Part shown: positions 210 to 62,155 of the stretch, one piece after another
Layout of the letters: every line of letters starts with the position of its first letter
Numbering within the stretch: position 1 is the first letter of the stretch
Assembly: GCF_963675165.1 (NCBI RefSeq)
Contig: NC_087392.1
Span: 1,193,001-1,257,000, forward strand
DNA: 64,000 nucleotides
Direction of reading: 5' to 3'
Origin: Halichondria panicea
Lineage: Eukaryota; Porifera; Demospongiae; Suberitida; Halichondriidae
The notes under the pieces: model-generated
Told to the model about the DNA's origin: nothing
The model's database searches: none
Seen by the model: the letters and a program-made list of their open reading frames with translations, nothing else
Translations under genes and position numbers: made by a program

Positions 210-3200
210 GGGACCCAGCGTTGTAGAGTTCATTTCCCTGTCCATGCAGATTGCGACTGGGTCCTTCACCCCCTCCTGTCTGGTGCTCCACCCAGTGCTC
301 CAGTTGGTCAGACAGGATGTACCCACTGCATACGTGCGTCTGGAGCAAATCATTCGTGATATGAGGATCTCCCTACACAAGTCAGGGCGTGAGGGGGAGC
401 AGCGGCCATTTTACACTCTGGAGCAGTTTGGAGAGAAGATGCATCAGTCAATGAAAGAGGCGAAAATACGAGAGAGTGACCTCATACCAGGACTCAGATT
501 CCTGCACAATGTGAGCAGTTGGGTACATGTGTATATACAGTGGAACCTCTGTTAACAACCACCTCCGAATAAAGGCCAGTTGCTATATAACGGCCAAGCA
601 CCCAGGTCCCAAATGAACAGTTTGTGTACAAAACAACCTCTCAACAAAGGCCACCTCTGTATAAAGGCCAAAACATTGTTCCCCAAAGGTGTCCGTTATA
701 GAGGGGTTCCACTGTATAACAATTTGAATGGACTGTTAATCCTCTCATTTTTGTCTCTAAATCTCTGCTAGCACTTTACTTTTAGTACGTACATAGCTGC
801 CACGATTGTATTTGCATTTCTTGTAAGCCCCTGTCAGTATGAGCTATCCCACGTACAAACTACACCTCCTTAGTTACCCCCTTTAAAGTAGTTATGTTTG
901 AAATTTTAGCCCACTCATTTATAGCCAATGTACGATCCAGCATCTCTTTTAATTGTTACCTACCGTCTCTTTACCCCCTCACAGTTGGGTTTTGTGCTGA
1001 TCCACGATTGCTCGTACGACAAGTCTCTCCTGATCTCAATAGACCCTCAAATGGTAGGGTTCCTCTTCCAGAGGATGATCCGGGCCGGACTCATTGCCAA
1101 GGAAACTGAACCCTCGTTCTTTCATCTCCCAAACACACACCTCTTCATGCTGTGGGGGGTCGACCCTGTGTGGTCTCACGAGGCTGACCACACCCACTCC
1201 GTCTCGACCAGACAGCTTCTAGACTTTCTCTACTCCACAAATATCTTTGCCCCTCTCATACCTGGAGTCATGCTACTGCCTTCTCTCCTGCCACACACTC
1301 TACCACGATCGTGTGACCCAGAGTCAGACTCTCTCATTCCAAGAAGAACGTACTTCTTCTCATATCTTCCCTCCATCTTCTCCGCCCAGCTCATCGCTAG
1401 AGTGGTGTCCAAGATACAGCCAACTGCCTCTCAACCACTCTCCCCCGGCCATACCACACCCACTCTCACCTTGCCCATACTCACTGCCTCAGGTACACGC
1501 GGTGCATTTTTTAATTTGACCAACTTGACCTGTACATGTACCTTCCAAAGTTTAAGTGTACATGTGTGTAAGCCCCTAACTGTAGCAAACTGGCAGTGAA
1601 ATAGTAATTTCATTTGAGGAGTGATCTTTTTCCTGCTGCACTGCGTATAAATATACTTTTATTGCAGGGTACAGAGTCCACCTGTGGCGTAGGAACCTGT
1701 TCATTGAGGACACTCAGGACAACTCTAAGATGTGGATGTATGTACGAGAGGGCAAGGCAGTGGGTCCGGACACCTCCCCCCATTGTGGGCGTGTTGATAT
1801 CCTCCTGAACGCACCCCTAGAGAGAGAGGCACTCTGGCTGAGACTAGTCTCCACTGAGATTGACCAGGTACCCAGCTTTATCTTGTACATGCATGTGTAC
1901 CACATCTGTAGAAGAACTTACAAAAGGAGCACATAATAAAATGACATTATTATGTCCTTGTAAGCTTCATATAATTATACACATCATCACGATACCTGCA
2001 TGCGTAATGGTACCGGTATTACATATGTAGGTCACAAATATTATATTTCTGATGCAGCTAATTCCACAAGAGTACCCCACCCTTCTCGAGCCCCCCCATC
2101 AAGTGGATAGTTTCTTTCCTTTGAGACCGGAGGCAATCAGTGGGAGCAGCAGCACTGAAGAGACGAGGGATGTCGCGTGTGCCCCACCCCTCCCAAACTG
2201 TGGATCCCTGCCAGCAGGAAGCCCCTCCCTCTCTCAGATGAGCGATAACTCCGAGTGGGAGGTTATCTCCAAGCAGAGCACCACAAGTACCCGTCTTAGC
2301 ATGAGGGTGGAGCTGGGCTCTCCACAGACACACCTCGTCGCCCTCTGGGACTGCCTACAGGTGATCTCTCAGTAATCTAAGTCAGTAATCTAAGAGCTGT
2401 TTGTCACATGCTTATCTAGACGTGTTCTGTTTGTCCACTTTTTTCACTTGTCATGTGACTCTTACATACATAGGAGGCATTCAAAGCACCTGTAATTCAA
2501 GTCAACTCTAGTCGACTAATTCTTCGCAATGCTCTTCCGGACCTCCTGTTTGCCGATCTCCCCCCGGAGCTGTTGCTACGGACAACCGTATCCTCCCCCG
2601 ATCAGTACCTCCTCTCTCTGGAGAACCACTTTAACGGAGGGGGTTCCCCCACTGACAGTGAGACAGGCTTCTACACACGCTCCTATTACACCTCAAGGGA
2701 AGCAGACGTCTGCATAGCAAAACCTGCTGGTGCTCTCAGAACAGTATGTCACCTCATAACACATGCAGTACATCTGTACGCTATGTTCAATACATAATAT
2801 ACAAGTAATGCAGTCCAGTGTTAGTTACTGCTCAAGTAAACAAAGTGCAATATTCATGTCATGTCCTTCATGCTAACTCTTTTATTCTCCTTACAGTTCC
2901 ACTTACAGAGTTTATTGTCTCGTATTCGTGGTGATCTGGAAGTGTTACAAAAGCTCCGATGTCCCCATCTGGTTGTTCCAGTGGGAATCCATTATTGCCC
3001 CCCCTCTCTGGCCCTGGAGTTTGCCCCCTGTGGCAGTCTGAGCTCCCTGCTCAAGCGAGGAAGGTCACACATAAGAAGGGATATCATACATCACATATCA
3101 CTGCAGGTATATGTGGGCTCATAAATAGAATAGAGTTTAGGTTTCAAATGATCGATATAATCGTTAAAATTAACAGACAATTTTATTTGATGGAGCCAAA

Positions 3201-5778
3201 ATCACCAATTTTTTCCTCCAGTTGCTACAAGCGTTGAAGTTCTTCCACGATCGAGACATAACCTATCACAGCATCAACTCAGACCATGTGCTAGTGTGGA
3301 GCATGGATCCTGTTTTGGTGAAGCTGTCTGATGCAGGAATCACTCACTCTGAGAGCAGCTGTGATCTCTGTGGCTACCTGCACTCCATCCCCAACTCCAC
3401 ACTGAGAGCAAAGACTGCCAGTAGAGTGAGTCAATTAACCATTACTTCTAGTATCACAATTACTAGCCTACACACAATGGCACACAGGATTGATAGCCTG
3501 CATGCCGTGTGCTTTCACTGTAGCTGAGTGTGTGTGTATATTTGGACGGTAGCCTTTGTAAGATGTGCTTGCTAGGATATCATCAACATTTTATGCGTGA
3601 TTACAGATTGATATACTCCCACACACACACACACACACACAGTGTGACTATGTTCTGCTGGGTCTATTGGTGTACCAGATGGCGACAGGGAAGTGTCCCT
3701 ATGACAGCATCCACTCTCTGAACATGCTGGCCATTGCCACTCTCGAGGGAAAGGTCAATCTCAGTGTGGAAGCTGAGCACTTTCTGCAAAACCAACAGGT
3801 TGGTGTTGGTTAACCATTGCACTGAATAACGCTCTGAGAGCCACTATTTTGGTGTTATTTAAACAAAAAGATTGTTTGTCTAGCATTAAGTTATGAAACA
3901 CTCTAAGCCTTTCACCACAATTAACACAAGTGTTTTCACTGTAATTAATCCATTTTCTATTTCATTCACATCTCTATTAAATATGTGCAACGTATATATT
4001 CTTCCTAGGTGGACAGTGAGAATACCTATGCAACAGGTTGTCAGCGTCTGTGTCTCCAGTCGGCCATTGATGGTTGTGTGACTGTCTCCCAGCCTCTCTC
4101 TACCTCGGTCCTTCAGGCACGCTTCAGTCTGTGTGCCGGCGATTACCAGTGGTCACCCATGAGGCTACACGTCAACGTGGAGGCTATGATCTGCTCGGAA
4201 GACGCCGATTATGTCTACTGGGCCTCAGGCTCTCGTGGTCTCGTTACGGGGACCATTCAGCCTATCAATGGAGAGTTGCTCAGCAACATCCTTCAAGAAG
4301 CACCACCTCCCGAATCGGGAATGTTTGCAAATCGACGAGCGAAACCTGTACCTATTGCGGTTGGTCGAGCCACTTCTGTCGCTTTGGTGTCGCGCACCCA
4401 ACAGTTGTGGGTGGGGACTGAGAATGGGCAAATGGGATCTGTGTATGTGTTCAATTTACCAGACATGAGAAGACACCATCACATTCATCTACAAGATGCT
4501 GTATTGTCTATTTGTGCTGTGAACAGTACTGCCGAGAGACTGGGAGAAGAGGGGGGAATGGTGTATCGTGTGCTGGTCGGCTTGGCCAATGGAACGGTCA
4601 TCTTGTTTCTGGGTGTGAAAGGAGACAAGGTTCTCGAGAATCCCCTACTGGGCCCTAAACAGATTGTCATCACTTACTGCCGCAAACCGTGCCTGGCGTT
4701 GGAACTGACAAGAGATGGTTACATCTGGTGCAGTGTGGGAGAGTCCCTGGAGGTGTTCGATATGAAGACTCTTAAATCTGTTCGACGACTCAACTGTCAG
4801 ATCTCGTCACCAGACGATTCTGCTGGGAGGCGTAGTGCATGTCGTGGTGATGTCATCATCCTAATGTGTGTCAACAGTCTTGGGGTGTGGACTGTGAGTA
4901 GGCGGAGTCACGTGCTGCGACTGTGGGACCAATTCAACGGCTCTCTCCTCTCATCATACAGTGTTCGGTGAGTAATGTACCTCCTAATTTGCTTACCGTG
5001 GGCCCCCTTTTATATCTACAACTTCCTTGCTAGCTTTTTTGACCTAAATTGCATTCCACCGCATCGATGCATGGATACAAACATAGTCATTCTGGTGTCT
5101 ATATATATCACCACTGATATAACCCCCCTCCCCCTCCCTCCCTTTCCAGGAACATTCTGATCAATGATGAGCCAGACATCACAGCCCTGTCCATACACGG
5201 AGGAGCAGTTTGGCTGGGCACCAGGAACGGTTACATCTTTGTCCTGGACGCCAACAAAATGAGCTGTGCCTGCGACGACCCTCTCCTGGGTCTGCAGTTC
5301 TGTGGGGAGGGGAGAGTGAAGGGGATACTCCCTCTAAAGCCCTGGAAGAAAGTCACATCAAAACTAGAGGTGAATTTTGATCACGATGGCCATGGATGTT
5401 AACCTTAGACCTACTAACCATTTACCAGTGTACTGTACTACATTTTGAGTACATGCTGAACTATTTTTTATCCTGAGCACTTGTAAAGTAGTTCTACATA
5501 TACTGCCCTAATAATTGTCAGCACAATCTACCAACGCTGGCTCAAGTATTAATCTGATTGTGTAGGTGCTGTGCAGTCTTGAGCTCCCTGACGAGGTGTC
5601 TGGTATGCTCATGTCGTGGGAGTACCTCCCCCACAATCAGTCAGCTATCCCCACTCAAGCTGCAGGGATCGTGCCTCGTACTCTCAGCACTCCTAGGGGT
5701 GTGGCTATAGCCATACCAACCACACCCACCAGAACTAACGGCGATTTACATGTATTGGAGATGTGTAAATCTGTGTGA
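210..5778 (+). CDS. LRRK-like ROCO protein, C-terminal part: COR, degenerate kinase, WD40-like
   Basis: Eleven exons: 210-510, 985-1492, 1668-1867, 2058-2360, 2474-2743, 2897-3106, 3222-3425, 3643-3798, 4009-4967, 5150-5369, 5566-5778. All joins keep phase and give 1180 residues; the N-terminus is off the window. Residues 1 to about 435 look like the COR dimerisation region of ROCO proteins. About 440-717 is a kinase-like fold, and the rest resembles the C-terminal WD40 propeller of LRRK1/LRRK2. The kinase keeps the beta-3 lysine (about K519, in VCIAK). The HRD/YRD motif reads YHS, so the catalytic aspartate is serine (about 614). The next lysine and asparagine are also changed, DFG/DYG is DAG (634-636), and no APE motif is seen. 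The LRR and Roc GTPase parts should lie upstream. In family members the GTPase regulates the kinase; here a scaffold or pseudokinase role is inferred. An AATAAA at 5838-5843 fits as its polyadenylation signal. Confidence 0.86.
538..714. mobile_element. Short TA-flanked inverted-repeat element (MITE)
   Basis: This 177-bp element lies in the first visible LRRK-like intron. It starts CAGTGGAACCTCTGTTAAC and ends with the inverted counterpart GTTATAGAGGGGTTCCACTG. TA lies directly outside each end (536-537 and 715-716). Inside are repeated pieces resembling AAAGGCCA. No coding capacity. The TA target and CAGTG ends fit a non-autonomous Tc1/mariner or pogo-like element, by inference. Confidence 0.75.
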
Positions 5779-5837
5779 TTTTTCTTTTACTGGCAGTGTG
5801 ATCATTCAACTCATCATTTCTTTTTGAACAATGTTTT

Positions 5838-5843
5838 AATAAA
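5838..5843 (+). promoter_or_regulatory. Polyadenylation signal AATAA A of the LRRK-like gene
   Basis: AATAAA sixty bases past the stop codon of the LRRK-like gene, in the 117-bp gap before the FBXO8 stop codon on the other strand. The two 3' UTRs probably meet or overlap here. Confidence 0.5.
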
Positions 5844-5895
5844 AAATATTATATTGACAGTATATATACAACACACAAAAACTAATAATAACTGC

Positions 5896-7472
5896 CTAGC
5901 GATGAGCTCCATAGTCCGTGGCAACATGGCCACTCAGGTAGATATTGTCATACATGTGTCCAAAGGTCTCGTCACTGACGTCCACTGTAGCGTGACGGAG
6001 GTTTCTGATGAATTCTCTCTTGGACATCTTGTTCTTGACGTGGGGACTGGTGAGGTCCACACTCAGCAGGATGAGTGAGTAGCAGATCACATGGAGGCAG
6101 TCTGAGGGAAGAAATGGGGGGGGGGGTGAGTATTTTGTATCCCTATCGTACAGGTACGTAGTGTTGCCTTGGGAATGAATATAACTTGTTGTCTTTTGAC
6201 CTCTGAGATCAATGGGAAGCAGTGCCAGTATTAGCATATTGTAGGGCCAATAATTATAATTATGTGGCACTCACAGCCATGTAATAACTAGCGGGGTTAA
6301 AGTGACCTTGTGGCACTCATAGCCATGTAATAACTAGCAGGGTTAAAGTGACCTTGTGGCACTCACAGCCATGTAATAACTATTACACACAGCAGTACAT
6401 GTAGCTAGATGTTATTAGAGGCCAAATTTCGCAGGGCTCTGTCACAATTAACACTAATTAATCTCCATCGATAAGAAGCACCAGATACGTCACTTATATA
6501 TACTCACCTTTGCTCATAGAGAGGTGTGTGTTACAGTCCATATAGCGGCCACTGAACTTGTTGACCAGTGTTTCCAGAAACAGGCCCCTCTCATTGGGTG
6601 CCGGGATCACGGAGAAGAAATGCCTGAGGGCGTCTGGGAGGAAGATGTTCTGGTAGTCCTGGAGAGAGACCAAACAGTCCAGTATGTCTGCGTTGTCTCG
6701 CAGGAGGGTTTCCAGAGAGTACCAGTTGAGAGAGCGCGTACTGTTGATAAACTCGGCAATGGCCTGAGGGGAATCGTCTAGCACACCAGCCCTCACCAGA
6801 TAGCCGATACCCTGAGGGAAAGAGATGGACAGTTAACTAAGTGTAGCTTTCGAGGAGGTACAGTAAATTCGAGTGAGTGAGTTTATACTATAATTTTTTA
6901 TGATTACATTAAGTGACAAACACCAAACAAACATAACACCGCTAGAGATAACAGTTGGCTCGAGTACGAGCGCCTGCTGGTTACCTCGTGAGCGTTGTTG
7001 GAGAAGGTGAGAGAGGCGTTGTCCAGGATCATATAGAGGTCCTTGTAGGAGTGCTGAACGGGGTAGTCAGTATGGTACGCAGTCACCTGACCCCAGCGAC
7101 TGTGGCATAAGCTACACAGGAGAACAGATAATAAAGTAATAATTATTTCAGCAATAATATTAGGCAATTAGTGTAACCAGGTGTAACCAGGTGTAACCCT
7201 TACCTAATACTTGAAAGCAATTATATAATCAACACACCTGGGAGTTTACAATAACAGAACATAATTAATGGCTACCTTTTCCAGAGTGGGTCGACGTTGG
7301 CCAGACTGCTCCACACCTCATTGACACAGGAGGCAAGACACAGGTCAGTGGCGTCAAGGTGACTGAGCACTTGTACGGCTAATTCTGGGGGCAGGGTCAC
7401 TAGATCTGGAAATGACTTCATTCTACCTTGCCTTACTCCTTGCCGACTGGCACAAGACACACGCTGACCCAT
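5896..7472 (-). CDS. FBXO8: F-box only protein 8 (F-box plus Sec7 domain)
   Basis: Four exons, read on the minus strand: 7472-7276, 7111-6985, 6811-6508, 6101-5896. They join in phase to give 277 residues, slightly shorter than the roughly 319-residue human protein. The start MGQ and an F-box (LPPELAVQVLSHLDATDLCL) lie in exon 1. Exons 3-4 encode a Sec7-like domain, with GVLDDSPQAIAEFI, then APNERGLFLETLVNKFS (which may carry the Sec7 glutamate), and LTSPHVKNKMSKREFIRN near the end. FBXO8 links an SCF ubiquitin-ligase adaptor module to an ARF-GEF-type fold and acts on ARF6 in vertebrates. It is tail-to-tail with the LRRK-like gene and head-to-head with the ABC transporter. Identification rests on near-identical blocks at both ends. 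Confidence 0.93.
6263..6381. repeat. 46-bp tandem repeat, about 2.6 copies
   Basis: Units start at 6263, 6309 and 6355 with TGTGGCACTCAYAGCCATG and differ by one or two bases. The array lies in the FBXO8 intron between exons 3 and 4. Confidence 0.9.
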
Positions 7473-55732: not shown

Positions 55733-55754
55733 GTTTTGGCACGTGTGTACATAG

Positions 55755-55814
55755 CCAAAAATCCACGGGTCCGTTTGATTTCAGGATGCTGGAAACGGTC
55801 CCGTGGATTTTTGG
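55755..55814. repeat. Strong hairpin, 22-bp stem
   Basis: CCAAAAATCCACGGGTCCG pairs with CGGTCCCGTGGATTTTTGG around a 16-base loop, with one mismatch. It is 14 bp beyond the hAT-like element and 92 bp before the MAT2B start codon. Confidence 0.85.
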
Positions 55815-56215
55815 ATATTATGCCGATTTTCCTCTAATATAACAGCGTTAGATTAGCCTTACAATAAAGACAATTCGTGCCGGAAACAAGCTAGTGGCAA
55901 ATAAAAATGGCTAATAAAGTGCTTGTAACTGGAGCTTCCGGCCTTCTTGGAAGAGAAATTTTGAGACAGTTTGTGTTCAATGGATGGGATGCTCTAGGCC
56001 TAGCCTACTCCAGGGTCCATGGCTCCCTGAGAAAAGTTGATCTCTGTGAGGAGGCTCAAATTGAAGCAGTTCTTGATGAGTTCTCCCCTGCGGTGGTGGT
56101 GCACTCTGCTGCTGAAAGAAGACCTGATGTGGTAGAGAAGCAAACACAATCCGCTACTGCCCTAAATGTTAACGCTACTGAGAAGTTAGCGTCGCTCTGT
56201 GCTAAGAAAAACATC

Positions 56216-56224
56216 TATCTTCTT
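56216..56224 (+). repeat. Target-site duplication, left copy
   Basis: TATCTTCTT, directly before the transposon's first base. Repeated exactly at 61568-61576. Confidence 0.88.
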
Positions 56225-56291
56225 TAGTCTGGCCACGCCCTCCCATACTTCGTATATGGTCGGGTGAACTTGCAATGAACAGTTCGTGCAG

Positions 56292-56316
56292 ACACCCCAA
56301 GATTTTCTTGGGGTGT
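56292..56316. repeat. Perfect 10-bp stem hairpin inside the transposon's left end
   Basis: ACACCCCAAG and CTTGGGGTGT around a 5-base loop, between the left terminus and the transposase start. A candidate transposase-binding or regulatory site. Confidence 0.8.
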
Positions 56317-56405
56317 GAAACCGCTTGTCAAGTGCCTTGTGGGCCGTTGTGGCCTGTTGTGTAAACTGTTACGTAAGCTATTGCATCACGAAAAAGTAGC
56401 TAGAT

Positions 56406-59400
56406 ATGGGCCTCTACTGCTGTTTGTGTGCGAATGAGTCTCTGGACAACCGAAGGCGAAAGAAGCTCAATGGTCATAGCTGTTCTGAAGCAAGAGAAGT
56501 ACTTGTGCAGCTCCTTCCAGTACCTCTGCATTGCATCCCTGAAACTAGTGCTAGTGACAGTATATTGTGTCACCAGTGCGAGAAACAACTGAAGAATGTC
56601 CATGCTCAACAAGAAAAGCTATGCAAGGTAAAGAAGGAAGCAACAGAGCTAATAAATGGTCTGCTTTCAAGACATGCAGAAGATAACTTATTACCACCAC
56701 CACCAAAAAGAAGTAGAGTTATGCAGGAACCCCCCACACCACCCATTCCATCATCTGTTTCAGTACCAACCATTCCATCAGTGTCAGCAGCAACCATTCC
56801 ACCAGTGTCAGCAGCAACCATTCCATCAGCGTCAGCAGCAACCATTCCACCGGTGTACGTGTCAGCAGCAACCATTCCACCAGTGTCAGCAGCAACCATT
56901 CCATCAGCGTCAGCAGCAACCATTCCACCGGTGTACGTGTCAGCAGCAACCATTCCACCAGTGTCAGCAGCAACCATTCCATCAGCGTCAGCAGCAATGT
57001 CAGCAGCTAATCTACGAACAACTGCAGCCACTCAGCTACCATCATCTCAGATACCGCAAAGCAGCTCTAATTTGCCCAGTTTTGAGGTACATTGATCACA
57101 TGTATTTATAAATATCACTGTTTATGTGCACATATTATATACATTGTATAATTATAGGTTGTAGTACCCTATTCGCAGCAGACCCGAAAGTACATTATCA
57201 AAACTCCGACTCGACAGACTGCCATTAGGCGTTTGGTCCGAAAGAGTTACACCGCTCTTACCTCTGGTACCGTAAACTCTCCTAGGGCAAAGAGGGCATT
57301 GTTATCACAGTTGGCACTGACAATCAAAAATGAGATGAAGAAGATAGGTACAAATAAACATGATTCAATTTTAAGGGACAACAATGAAGCAGTGAAACGA
57401 TTCAGCTGGGAGACAGTGAGATTGGAGCTTTATAAGATGGTTCCAACTCTCATGTCACTGCTTTCGCTGCTGATACCAAACCCAGAAAACCGTATACCCC
57501 TTATTTGCACTATTGCATCCCAATTGTTGAAGTGCAGGCATCAACACCTATCGTTAGTCCAGAGGGTTGTTTCCGTCATGTTGTATGGACATGGAACTCA
57601 CAAGCAGGTATTAATTAATTGTTATCATAACTCAATAATATTAACACATATTGTTTAATTCCAAGGTGTTCAGCAATCTGCAGCCACTGAACTTATGCCT
57701 CTCCCACAAAGGATCGCTGAACATTGTGAGAGGTATTTCTCAAGACTATGACGTTGAAGTACAAGAGTGGCGGGACAAGTTGATTGAGAGAATCCCCAAA
57801 CCCACTGCGGATGTATCGGTAAAATTTGTATCATTTAGTAATTTTAGCGTGTATAGAATACTCATATCACAGTATCGATCGCTGACACTACCATCACAAA
57901 CCGCTACTGATGCGGACTACTCCCTGACAGAACAGGATGTACCTCTGAGCGAGCTTAACGCAAGCTTCTCATCTGATGACTATAGTCATCCAGATTTTAG
58001 TCCGATTACATCTGTTGAGGATAATGAGGTGGATGAGAACGTAGCAGATGATCTGGAGACCAGTTTAATCGTTGATGATCCTCAGGTAGGTTAGGATAAA
58101 TACTGTAGACCCATCTAAAACTGACTTCTTCAGAATCAAAGTGACCAGTCCCAGCCAACATCAAGTTCCACTTTCACCTGGACTGGATTTAAATTTGTTG
58201 GGGACAACCTCGATAAGAGGGTGAAGCCACGGTATCAAAGAGCAGATATGAGAGGCCATGAAGGGCACTATTTTCATGGTTTTGCTGTTCGTGATAGAAT
58301 AGATATGTGCAGGTTTTCAGAAGAGAAACCATCTCGAGTTGAACCACAGGCATCAGAGCTACTAGCCTCCAGTGATGACGTCTCAGCTTACAAAACGGAG
58401 TTGGAGATACTAATTTCACGGTAAAGTATCAGCAAATAATTATTGCGTTCCATTAGGTTATTTGTATTATAATGCAGAATACTAGTTGAGCACATGGGAG
58501 ATGTATTTGACAGTGAGAAGAAAAACGTCATGAAACACATCCCCAGTAAATACTCGGAGGAAATGGCATCTTCATCGAAAACGGTATGAAACGTATACAA
58601 AGAAAGTGCACTAGTATACATTTACTCATGCATGCATATACTAACACTTTGCCTCTCTTAACTTTTTAATTAGGTTCCGCTTAGTGTATTGCTTCTTAAT
58701 GAGAATAAGCTGGAGGAGATGAGCCAAATTTTGAAGCACTACATGGAGCTGGTCCCTGCTTTGTCTTGTGAAGGCAAATTTACTCTTGGGAATGGAACCA
58801 CTATCACGTTCGACGATACAAGGCTATGGGAAGTGCTTTTTGGAGGAGATCAATTAACGGTAGCCAGAATTCGTGGAACACAGACTCTGAGGGACACTGA
58901 GGAAAGCCCTGGAGATCGGCTTGAGGGCATCATCCCTGTGGTGGAGGACTGGCACACTAGGATGACCTTCTTGAGGGTACAGCAAAGTACAATAATTATA
59001 TGTGCATGCATGCGCATGCAATAATTATACCCTCGAATGTTGCAATAAACTTTTTATGTTTGTTGCCACAGCTTGTCTGGGGGCGTCACTATAGTAAAGA
59101 GTCTACCCGGGAAGTAGGCACCATGTATCACCTTCGAAATCTAATATGCAGGAATGTTGTACCAGCTGACCCGGAGAAGAACATGAATGCAGCCGAAGAC
59201 TTTATGCTCCTCCTTGTACATTGCCATGTCACAGCAGCTGCACATCATTTAATGCAAAAGAAAGCTCACAATTTGGCCACGTTAACCAAGGAGATAATCG
59301 ATACGTTTGTGCATTTTCAAGATGTTTCTCAGATTGGTCAAACAACACCCGATTCTAATGATAAGGTGCATCTATACGCCACAGAGCTTCTCTCGTTGGG

Positions 59401-59989
59401 TCTTCTTTGGTACGGGTTTCACGATGCTGTAAGGGAGGCAGATGGAGACCGCATATTAAGATACTGGAAGCTGCTTTTGGTGCCTTTCAAATCATCAGCG
59501 CATAGGAATTATGCCAAAGAAGCAGTGAATATTCTTTTTCAGTATCATTATGTATTTTCTGAGAGGCAAAAGATGCAGTTGCTGTGGAGCAGGTGTGTTA
59601 ACACAAGAGGTTACAAAGGTGCTAACATACCATGTGATTTATACATGGAGCATCTCAATCGAAGATTGAAGACAGTTGTTCGTGGCATGGGCTCCAATGT
59701 GTCACCAGATAAAATACAGAGAGCTGGGAAAACACTACAGCCGATACAAACTGTGTGCGAAGCATTTGAGAAAGAGACTACCAATGAAATACGAAGTGAT
59801 AGGCATCCCTATCCATCTTTTGAAAAAGATTTTAAGCTAATTTTTGATACACTGATCAAAAACAAAGTGTTTAGCGATGTTCCTGGCCGAAACCATCCCA
59901 GTTATAAATTCAAGAAAAGTATTTTCAAACTGAACTCCAGAAATGAACTTATAAAAAAAGTTAACACAACCTTAAAGAAGCTAGTCTAG
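56406..59989 (+). CDS. DUF6589-like putative transposase
   Basis: Seven exons: 56406-57086, 57158-57607, 57666-58085, 58134-58420, 58478-58583, 58674-58976, 59072-59989, in phase, 1054 residues. The N-terminus holds spaced cysteine pairs (YCCLCANE, then CHQCEKQL), a zinc-binding-like region. A linker of ATIPPVSA-type repeats follows. The core has VGDNLDKRV and HYFHGFAVRDRID (exon 4), then LFGGDQLTVARIRGTQTLR and VVEDWHTRM (exon 6). These resemble the conserved blocks of DUF6589 proteins, with aspartates that could form a DDE/D-type site. A 54-base stretch (57819-57872) bounded by GT and AG could also be a retained in-frame intron. Family identity is from memory of motifs. Confidence 0.72.
56756..56996 (+). 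repeat. 24-bp repeats in 78-bp higher-order units inside the transposase frame
   Basis: Units of TCAGCAGCAACCATTCCA encode (S)AATIPP/SVSA. A longer 78-bp period is marked by CCGGTGTACGTG at 56850 and 56928. The repeats stay in frame. Confidence 0.9.
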
Positions 59990-60020
59990 AATAATACTTT
60001 GCATGTTGTGTGTAATGTAA

Positions 60021-61350
60021 TCATGAGTTCGTTGCAATAAAGCCACAAATGTCACAACAACTACTACCTTCTACGTTAATACTGTCTTCTTTGTAATATA
60101 AAAAATCTTTAAAAAGTAAACGACGTCTACACATGCTACTGTTTAAAACATAGTCTTTCATTTTCTTACTAGCATATCTTCCTCCTTTTCCTGCAAATAG
60201 TAGTGCTTGTGAGGGTTGTCCATCCCTGCCACTACGCCCAGTTTCTTGTACATACTCCTCAACTGATGAAGGCATACCCCAATGAACAATGGTTCGTATG
60301 TCTGGGCAGTCAATACCCATTCCGAAAGCTGTTGTGGCAATCACTAAACGTAATGTGCTGTCAACTGAGGTGAAAGAATTCAACACATCTTCTTTTTTGC
60401 TAACAGAAAGCACTCTAGTAAACATGTCAACTAGTCGATGACCTTTAACATTGGGACATCCAGGTGGATCAGTTATATAGGATCCGAGACTGCACTTAAT
60501 CACCATATATAAAGATGAGCAATCGGCATAACTTCGTACGTAAATCACTGTTTTAGGGTATGACTTCCGTTTTTCTCGAATTTCATCAGCAATTTTTTCA
60601 CCAAGGCTTTCAACGTCAATCTTAGAGTGAACCTCATAAGAAATATTGTCTCGGAAAGGAGGGGAGGCAATTAAAGTAGGATCGTCCATACATAACCTTC
60701 TACTGACAATGTAAAATGTTTCTGTTGTAGAGGTAGCAGTAAGTGCGTGAACACCGACATTGTCTGGAATGAGGCTCCTTAAATCTCCAATCTCCGAAAA
60801 AGCGACTCGAAAATCATCTCCCCAGGTTTTAACGCAGTGGGCTTCATCAACTACTACTGCAACGAGATTCTTTATATACGGTGGTGACAGAAGCATATTT
60901 CGAAAAATACCCTTCGCTAATATGCTCTCTGGGGAGATGAACACCAACTGAGCTTCTCCTTTCAGTACTCTGTTAATAGCACTACGGTCTGTCTGAGCTT
61001 CTCCAACGTATTCCACTGTCAATCCTCCAGCTGCATACTTTTTTTGTTGATCCATCATCAGCGAAGTGAGGGGACTAATACAAAGTACAATGCTTCCAGA
61101 TGTTCCTGCAAAACAGAAAAATATAGGTACACTCATACAGCAATTTTAGTTCACCTTTCAATTGGTCAAAGGCCATAGGTAATGCAGCAAAGATTACTGA
61201 CTTTCCATAGCCAGTTGGCAGTGACACAAATGTGTCCTTTCCTCCAATGATCGAATACATTGCTTTCATTTGCTCTGGCTTTAAATAATGGATCCCAATT
61301 GCTCTAGCACTCTCAATTATCACGTCTTGCATCTTCATGTGTCTTTCCAT
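60021..61350 (-). CDS. RecQ-like SF2 helicase of the transposon
   Basis: Two exons on the minus strand, 61350-61155 and 61105-60021, giving 426 residues. Motif order is that of RecQ: motif 0 region YLKPEQMKAM, Walker A LPTGYGKS, motif Ia SPLTSLMMDQ, motif II VVVDEAHCVKTWGDDF, motif III ALTATSTT, motif V ATTAFGMGIDCPDIR, motif VI QETGRSGRDGQ. A C-terminal cysteine group (CCDICGF) may be the remains of the RecQ zinc site. HRDC and WRN-type extensions are absent. It likely assists transposition by unwinding DNA; that role is inferred from location. It is convergent with the transposase gene; an AATAAA at 60036-60041 for that gene lies inside this coding region. Confidence 0.9.
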
Positions 61351-61567
61351 AGTCTTGCACTATAATTATGTACTAAATCTTGAAAGTCATAAACTAAATG
61401 TTCCACACTGATTTTTGGCCACACCTAGTACCTGTACCACACTACATGTATTTGGTTAACACCCAATTATCACTACTAGGTTATCTAACCGCGGCACTTA
61501 GGGCCTGACACGAGTGGTGATAGTGAAGTTCACCAGACTCTTGCAAAGAGGCTGGAAATCGAGACTA

Positions 61568-61576
61568 TATCTTCTT
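61568..61576 (+). repeat. Target-site duplication, right copy
   Basis: TATCTTCTT, directly after the transposon's last base. MAT2B coding resumes here. Confidence 0.88.
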
Positions 61577-62155
61577 TACATAAGTTCCGACTACGTATTT
61601 GATGGAAATAATGCACCTTACAAGCCTGGGGATTCCACCAATCCACTCAACACGTATGGACAAATGAAACTCGATGGAGAAATTGCCGTGAGAAAGTACA
61701 ATCAATTTGGTGTGCTGAGAATTCCCGTTCTATATGGAAGTGTAGAATCGCTGGGAGAAAGTGCCGTTACAACTCTATTTCAAGCTGTCTTGGATTCGAG
61801 CAAGCCTGTCAAGATGAACGATTTTCAACTCCGATATCCCACCCATGTAGCTGACTGTGCCCAAGTTTGTGTTGGGTTAGCGAACAGACAAGTGAGCGAC
61901 GGTGACAGTAATGCTGGTGGAGTATGGCATTGGAGTGCTGAGGAATGTTTCACCAAGTACACTATGGCAATGGCTATGGCTCAGGTGTTTGGACTCAGTA
62001 GTGATCACTTGGTTGCTGACAAAAGTCCTCCCAGTGGAGCTCCAAGGCCGTTTGACTGTAATTTAGATACAACAGAAACAAAGAAAGCTGTGCAAGTTCA
62101 ACAAACACCCTTCAAAGATGGAATTCGAGCAGTCCTTGAGTCATATCTCCCATAA

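Follow-up and report, generated by a model that had tools for sequence, protein, structure and literature searches.

A helicase-encoding DNA transposon in the single coding exon of MAT2B in the sponge Halichondria panicea

Within a 64,000-nt stretch of the Halichondria panicea genome (NC_087392.1, positions 1,193,001 to 1,257,000 of the forward strand; hereafter the window), the frame of MAT2B, which encodes the regulatory subunit of S-adenosylmethionine synthesis, stops at 56224 and resumes at 61577. What interrupts the gene, and does the gene survive the interruption? We conclude with high confidence that a full-length, recently mobile DNA transposon, probably AcademH-like, inserted into the single MAT2B coding exon, duplicating 9 bp of its target, and that MAT2B is most likely null on this haplotype.

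The interrupted MAT2B frame

A first-pass annotation of the window had described a MAT2B frame that loses no codon across the interruption, an exact 9-bp duplication, a stop codon supplied by the intervening DNA itself and short inverted ends, and each of these was recovered at the sequence level (Table 1). The in-frame TAG that ends the first half of MAT2B consists of bases 1-3 of the element (56225-56227), and the element's two ends are imperfectly alike over roughly 60-70 bp. When the flanks were joined with a single TATCTTCTT, they gave 298 codons with no internal stops. We compared the joined 298-residue product with PDB sequences by phmmer and observed a top match, over residues 2-294, to the MAT2B chain 2ydx_A (E 1.6e-76, 260.8 bits), which we take to be the human protein; the next differently named molecule, a dTDP-4-dehydrorhamnose reductase, reached 80.5 bits. 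Among PDB sequences, MAT2B was accordingly the closest protein over the full length, as expected of an orthologue, and the alignment to 2ydx was ungapped across the insertion junction. The coding sequence is a single exon.

The assembly that we searched holds 131,455,214 bases in 39 contigs, with a single haplotype assembled. The hunt for a second MAT2B that the first-pass annotation had called for was run on all of it and found none: the whole-protein search returned the two window halves and two weak matches (E 0.18 and 0.2), and a DNA search with the left part of the gene revealed no further copy. The C-terminal domain of the catalytic methionine adenosyltransferase gave three neighbouring matches on C6.

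Table 1. Features of the interrupted MAT2B locus, in window coordinates
Feature	Position	Strand	Remarks
MAT2B coding, first 106 codons from ATG	55907..56224	+	Left duplication at its end; Pfam RmlD_sub_bind and Epimerase
Left 9-bp target site duplication, TATCTTCTT	56216..56224	+	Sequence reading
DNA transposon, 5343 bp, helicase-encoding, probably AcademH-like, apparently autonomous	56225..61567	+	Ends, duplication, copies, genes
Left terminal inverted repeat, TAGTCT	56225..56230	+	Its TAG stops the MAT2B frame
Putative transposase gene, 8 exons, 1036 residues	56406..59989	+	Cys-rich N-terminus; Pfam DUF6589 at residues 572-976, E 2.1e-51
Exons of the putative transposase gene	56406-57086, 57158-57607, 57666-57818, 57873-58085, 58134-58420, 58478-58583, 58674-58976, 59072-59989	+	Gene model
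Ser/Ala/Thr/Pro-rich repetitive linker in transposase exon 1, approximate bounds	56750..57000	+	78 bp absent from the other full-length copy
RecQ-like DNA helicase gene, 2 exons (1 GT-AG intron), 426 residues	60021..61350	-	Convergent to the transposase gene
Right terminal inverted repeat, AGACTA	61562..61567	+	
Right 9-bp target site duplication, TATCTTCTT	61568..61576	+	Sequence reading
MAT2B coding, last 192 codons and stop TAA	61577..62155	+	Frame reading, protein search

MAT2B could still work if splicing removed the element from the RNA like an intron, either exactly or via cryptic sites. The exact version, a transcript joining 56224 to 61577 that the first-pass annotation had proposed looking for, fails as a normal intron: exact GT-AG removal is impossible, since the ten possible registers start with TA, AT, TC, CT or TT and none ends in AG. 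The cryptic version could use a pyrimidine-rich acceptor that ends at 61584 together with a weak donor at 56185; the two share a phase, and splicing between them would excise the entire element and preserve the frame. Short GT-AG introns are also modelled in the element's own genes. The resulting 56184/61585 junction would, however, lose 16 codons of the Rossmann part, including the stretch before SSDYVFD, and its donor scored 2.9 bits on a crude splice-weight matrix, where the seven donors modelled in the transposase gene range from 2.5 to 10.1. We give splicing only a very slight chance of rescuing the gene. An assembly artefact, in which the element was wrongly joined into MAT2B, seems to us a shade less probable even than that. 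The analysis covered the assembled sequence of a single haplotype, which leaves some room for such an error; against it, no part of the element is missing between its ends and it is flanked by an exact duplication, as at 15 of 16 other places (the remaining one has none), and the two junctions fall within a single open MAT2B frame. Insertion of a transposon into the exon is the reading we favour, and we regard a misassembly or an intron as very unlikely.

Because exact GT-AG removal of the element is impossible, the interrupted MAT2B allele is most likely null. The TAG that forms the element's first codon would end the protein after 106 of 298 residues; this early stop, together with the lack of another MAT2B in the assembly, speaks strongly for the null allele that the first-pass annotation had thought likely. 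The animal may tolerate losing the regulatory subunit, since the catalytic methionine adenosyltransferase is encoded elsewhere. As the assembly represents one haplotype, the insertion could be heterozygous, somatic or rare. That it is common or fixed, with the animal living without MAT2B or regaining it by excision, we consider decidedly improbable; if it were so, the MAT2B locus could act as a natural excision reporter. Since the duplication is 9 bp long, excision leaving both copies is predicted to restore the frame with three extra codons. In any case, a natural disruption of MAT2B offers a handle on the role of the regulatory subunit in this animal.

We also noticed by eye an imperfect inverted repeat, AAAAATCCACGGG.. 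/ ..CCCGTGGATTTTT, at window positions 55750-55820, about 90 bp upstream of the MAT2B start codon. It is possibly a small miniature inverted-repeat transposable element.

Genes and copies of the element

The two element genes were modelled by eye, without RNA. The model of the putative transposase gene has seven GT-AG introns of 48-95 bp, so that the earlier description of both genes as open is correct once they are spliced and does not apply to them as continuous frames, the helicase gene also having its one intron. Both are open after splicing in the window copy and in a second full-length copy, L003 (C3:6274705-6279969), which encodes products of 1010 and 426 residues. On the helicase, Pfam identified DEAD (E 1e-19) and Helicase_C (E 1.1e-12), with ResIII and RecQ_Zn_bind both under the cut-off, and its PDB relatives were RecQ, WRN, BLM, RECQ1, RECQ4 and RECQ5. 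The putative transposase matched DUF6589 and had a single chance-level match besides (PB2_627-dom, E 0.21); the Cys-rich start of its exon 1 gives the impression of a ZAD-like finger, with no Pfam match there.

A search of the assembly with the element returned at least 70 matches (the best 40 of 56 candidates were scored). We checked duplications at 17 distinct places, among 45 loci, where both ends were present; at least two further two-ended places (C8:4399808-4400670 and C5:105487-106083) lie outside this count, and other matches have only one end or neither. An exact 9-bp duplication flanked the element at 13 of the 17 places and an exact 8-bp duplication at three, with none at the last, and the duplications comprised 16 different sequences. 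Three of these copies measure 5.1-5.3 kb, three 2.0-2.9 kb, ten 1.56-1.62 kb and one 0.65 kb. The short copies retain both ends but little of the interior, which is the usual form of non-autonomous derivatives.

L003 differs from the window copy by 9 mismatches in 5265 aligned bases and one 78-bp gap, and the third long copy by 32 mismatches in 5083 bases and several gaps. The 78-bp difference is in frame and falls in the transposase linker, a coding minisatellite; against the window copy, the gaps of the third long copy differ from this in length. The insertion host of L003 is a very common repeat (C3:6274555-6280127; 399 first-look candidates). When we joined its flanks with a single 8-bp duplication and used them as an empty-site query, 38 other places matched unbroken across the junction at 97-99% identity, among the best 40 of the 399 candidates scored. 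The repeat around L003 is thus present at those 38 places as about 140 bp that are 97-99% alike, and at the places checked the match lengths leave no room for an 8-bp gap. For L011, one of the short copies, we found three paralogous places that align across the junction at 86-87%; each exceeds the query stretch by 12-18 bases in length, so that they provide no clean test of the duplication. Judged from these sequences, the family has moved recently. The recent insertion into MAT2B that the first-pass annotation had put forward is upheld by the terminal repeats, the duplication, the near-identical second copy, the deletion derivatives and the empty sites of that second copy. The family also provides a complete transposon resource: an element whose two genes are open, a sister copy almost identical to it and derivatives shortened by deletion.

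DUF6589 and the proposed mechanism

Pfam labels DUF6589 merely as a family of unknown function, and no paper of the literature searched names it. The Pfam model gave 92 matches in this genome and none in 14 control genomes, which are prokaryotes and little informative on eukaryotes; a scan of viral contigs found no DUF6589 relatives. We clustered the 92 rows by position into 63 loci and compared them with two other full match tables (111 and 47 rows). A helicase match lay within 3 kb at 29 of the 63 loci, and in 29 of 29 cases the nearest one was on the opposite strand and downstream, that is, convergent. Random placement gave 0.51 such loci on average and at most 3 (200 trials), compared to the 29 observed. 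This recurrent convergent pairing suggests that helicase-bearing DNA transposons probably have DUF6589 as their transposase core. A candidate catalytic triad comprises Asp in GDQLT, Asp in EDWH and Glu in MEHLN, and the candidate Glu was invariant in an alignment of six last-exon stretches.

Several observations weigh against this view of DUF6589. At 27 of the 63 loci there was neither a helicase match nor an extra domain nearby. The Asp motifs were present at 12 of the 18 loci searched and the Glu motif at 14, with copies of a single family among them; the Glu motif was missing from L046 and L050, and the motif search gave no match at all in L052 and L054. The reading of DUF6589 as a DDE transposase itself draws on such motifs and not on a DDE fold. 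With these points in mind, we propose that the DUF6589 protein would act as a DDE-type cut-and-paste transposase, cutting the target at positions 9 bp apart, that the RecQ-like helicase may assist transposition, and that the short forms would have moved on proteins of the full-length copies.

A sister family of 5349 bp (L047/L048) is represented by two copies that are 99.925% identical (4 differences), with inverted ends of about 70 bp beginning TAGCCTCGAG. Read by eye, one of its copies has a 9-bp duplication, TCTAGTGCT, and the other has none. Differences between the window family and L047 at codon positions 1/2/3 were 0.43/0.24/0.66 in transposase exon 8, 0.36/0.15/0.63 in exon 7 and 0.34/0.24/0.64 in the helicase, the third-position-heavy pattern that is expected under selection on the protein. 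Six loci share one identical DUF6589 score (L047/L048 sister family) and have probably been active recently.

At 7 of the 63 loci, a further domain on the same strand (L046 and kin) stood in place of the helicase, and no locus had both. L046 (C3:3625500-3632500, frame 1784-6637, minus strand) is one 1617-residue open frame that combines DUF6589 with an unclassified C-terminal domain; 99% alike matches exist on C9 and C14, and it possibly represents a second lineage of DUF6589 elements. By eye, NAEESDTRIW, SPDTDVYHVG and TGCDYISFF gave this extra domain the look of an XPG/FEN nuclease, which would have tied DUF6589 to AcademX, a group of Academ transposons whose nuclease is of the XPG type. The likeness remains an impression: Pfam gave it no support, phmmer against PDB yielded two chance-level matches, a profile of seven stretches found no match in PDB, and hhalign gave a probability of 0.2 when three XPG_I stretches from this genome served as the comparison. 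Separately, C13:3752339-3866203 (L071) carries six open frames of 588-601 residues whose XPG_I match exceeds the cut-off, plus a shorter seventh that falls short of it, at intervals of about 17-24 kb. To the eye L071 resembles Asteroid, and this XPG_I array is possibly a local gene expansion.

Elsewhere in the window, a Pfam scan of 10 frames matched six and left four without a match. The matches were to an LRRK2-type propeller, the membrane and ATPase parts of an ABC transporter, an AKAP-17A-like RNA-binding domain, a ciliary-transport TPR and a coiled coil, a set in keeping with an animal genome. The modest genome size, very short introns and AT-rich palindromic filler also give the impression of a demosponge.

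Placement among known transposons

We were also curious where the element belongs among described superfamilies. PMC10799480 assigns DEAD and Helicase_C domains to AcademH, KolobokH or Helitron, and PMC10045372 gives duplications of 9 or 10 bp for AcademH and 3 or 4 bp for AcademX, related to the encoded helicase and nuclease. The window family, with 8-9 bp and a helicase, departs from AcademX on both counts. Neither element protein had an XPG-type match in Pfam at E up to 10, which fits AcademH, and no text in the literature searched joined Academ with XPG.

Membership of another superfamily, whether Kolobok with a RecQ helicase, KDZ/Zisupton or Mutator, appears unlikely to us. Mutator duplications are 9 bp long, and Pfam contains KDZ and MULE models; the putative transposase matched no KDZ, MULE or Kolobok-type model. 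The helicase is the likeness to Kolobok: according to PMC9587614, a RecQ helicase is encoded by KolobokH, reported there only from fungi, and the red-algal Kolobok-1_CCri carries one on the complementary strand, as the window element does. The same paper gives Kolobok a TTAA duplication and 5'-RR ends, however, whereas the window family has varied 8-9-bp duplications and a TAG end. Zisupton resembles it in having long duplications, given as 8 bp in PMC12730594 and matched by 3 of the 17 copies here, but 13 of the 17 have 9 bp. The end motifs are TAGTCT..AGACTA in the window family and TAGCCTCGAG.. in its sister family.

AcademH, reportedly described by Kojima in 2020 (Mob DNA 11:15) as a lineage of the Academ superfamily, is said to occur in animals and fungi. 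By helicase and duplication length, the two described traits that were compared, the element is probably closest to AcademH. Against the placement stand the 8-bp duplications at 3 of 17 places, the lack of any at one and the occurrence of 10 bp at none. Active transposons that insert into and break genes are as such ordinary, and the element is a clean natural instance of a familiar type of event, not new biology. Its likeness to AcademH consists in a helicase encoded beside the transposase, here RecQ-like, of 426 residues and convergent, and in long duplications, reported as 9 or 10 bp and found here as 9 bp in the window copy and at 13 of 17 places.

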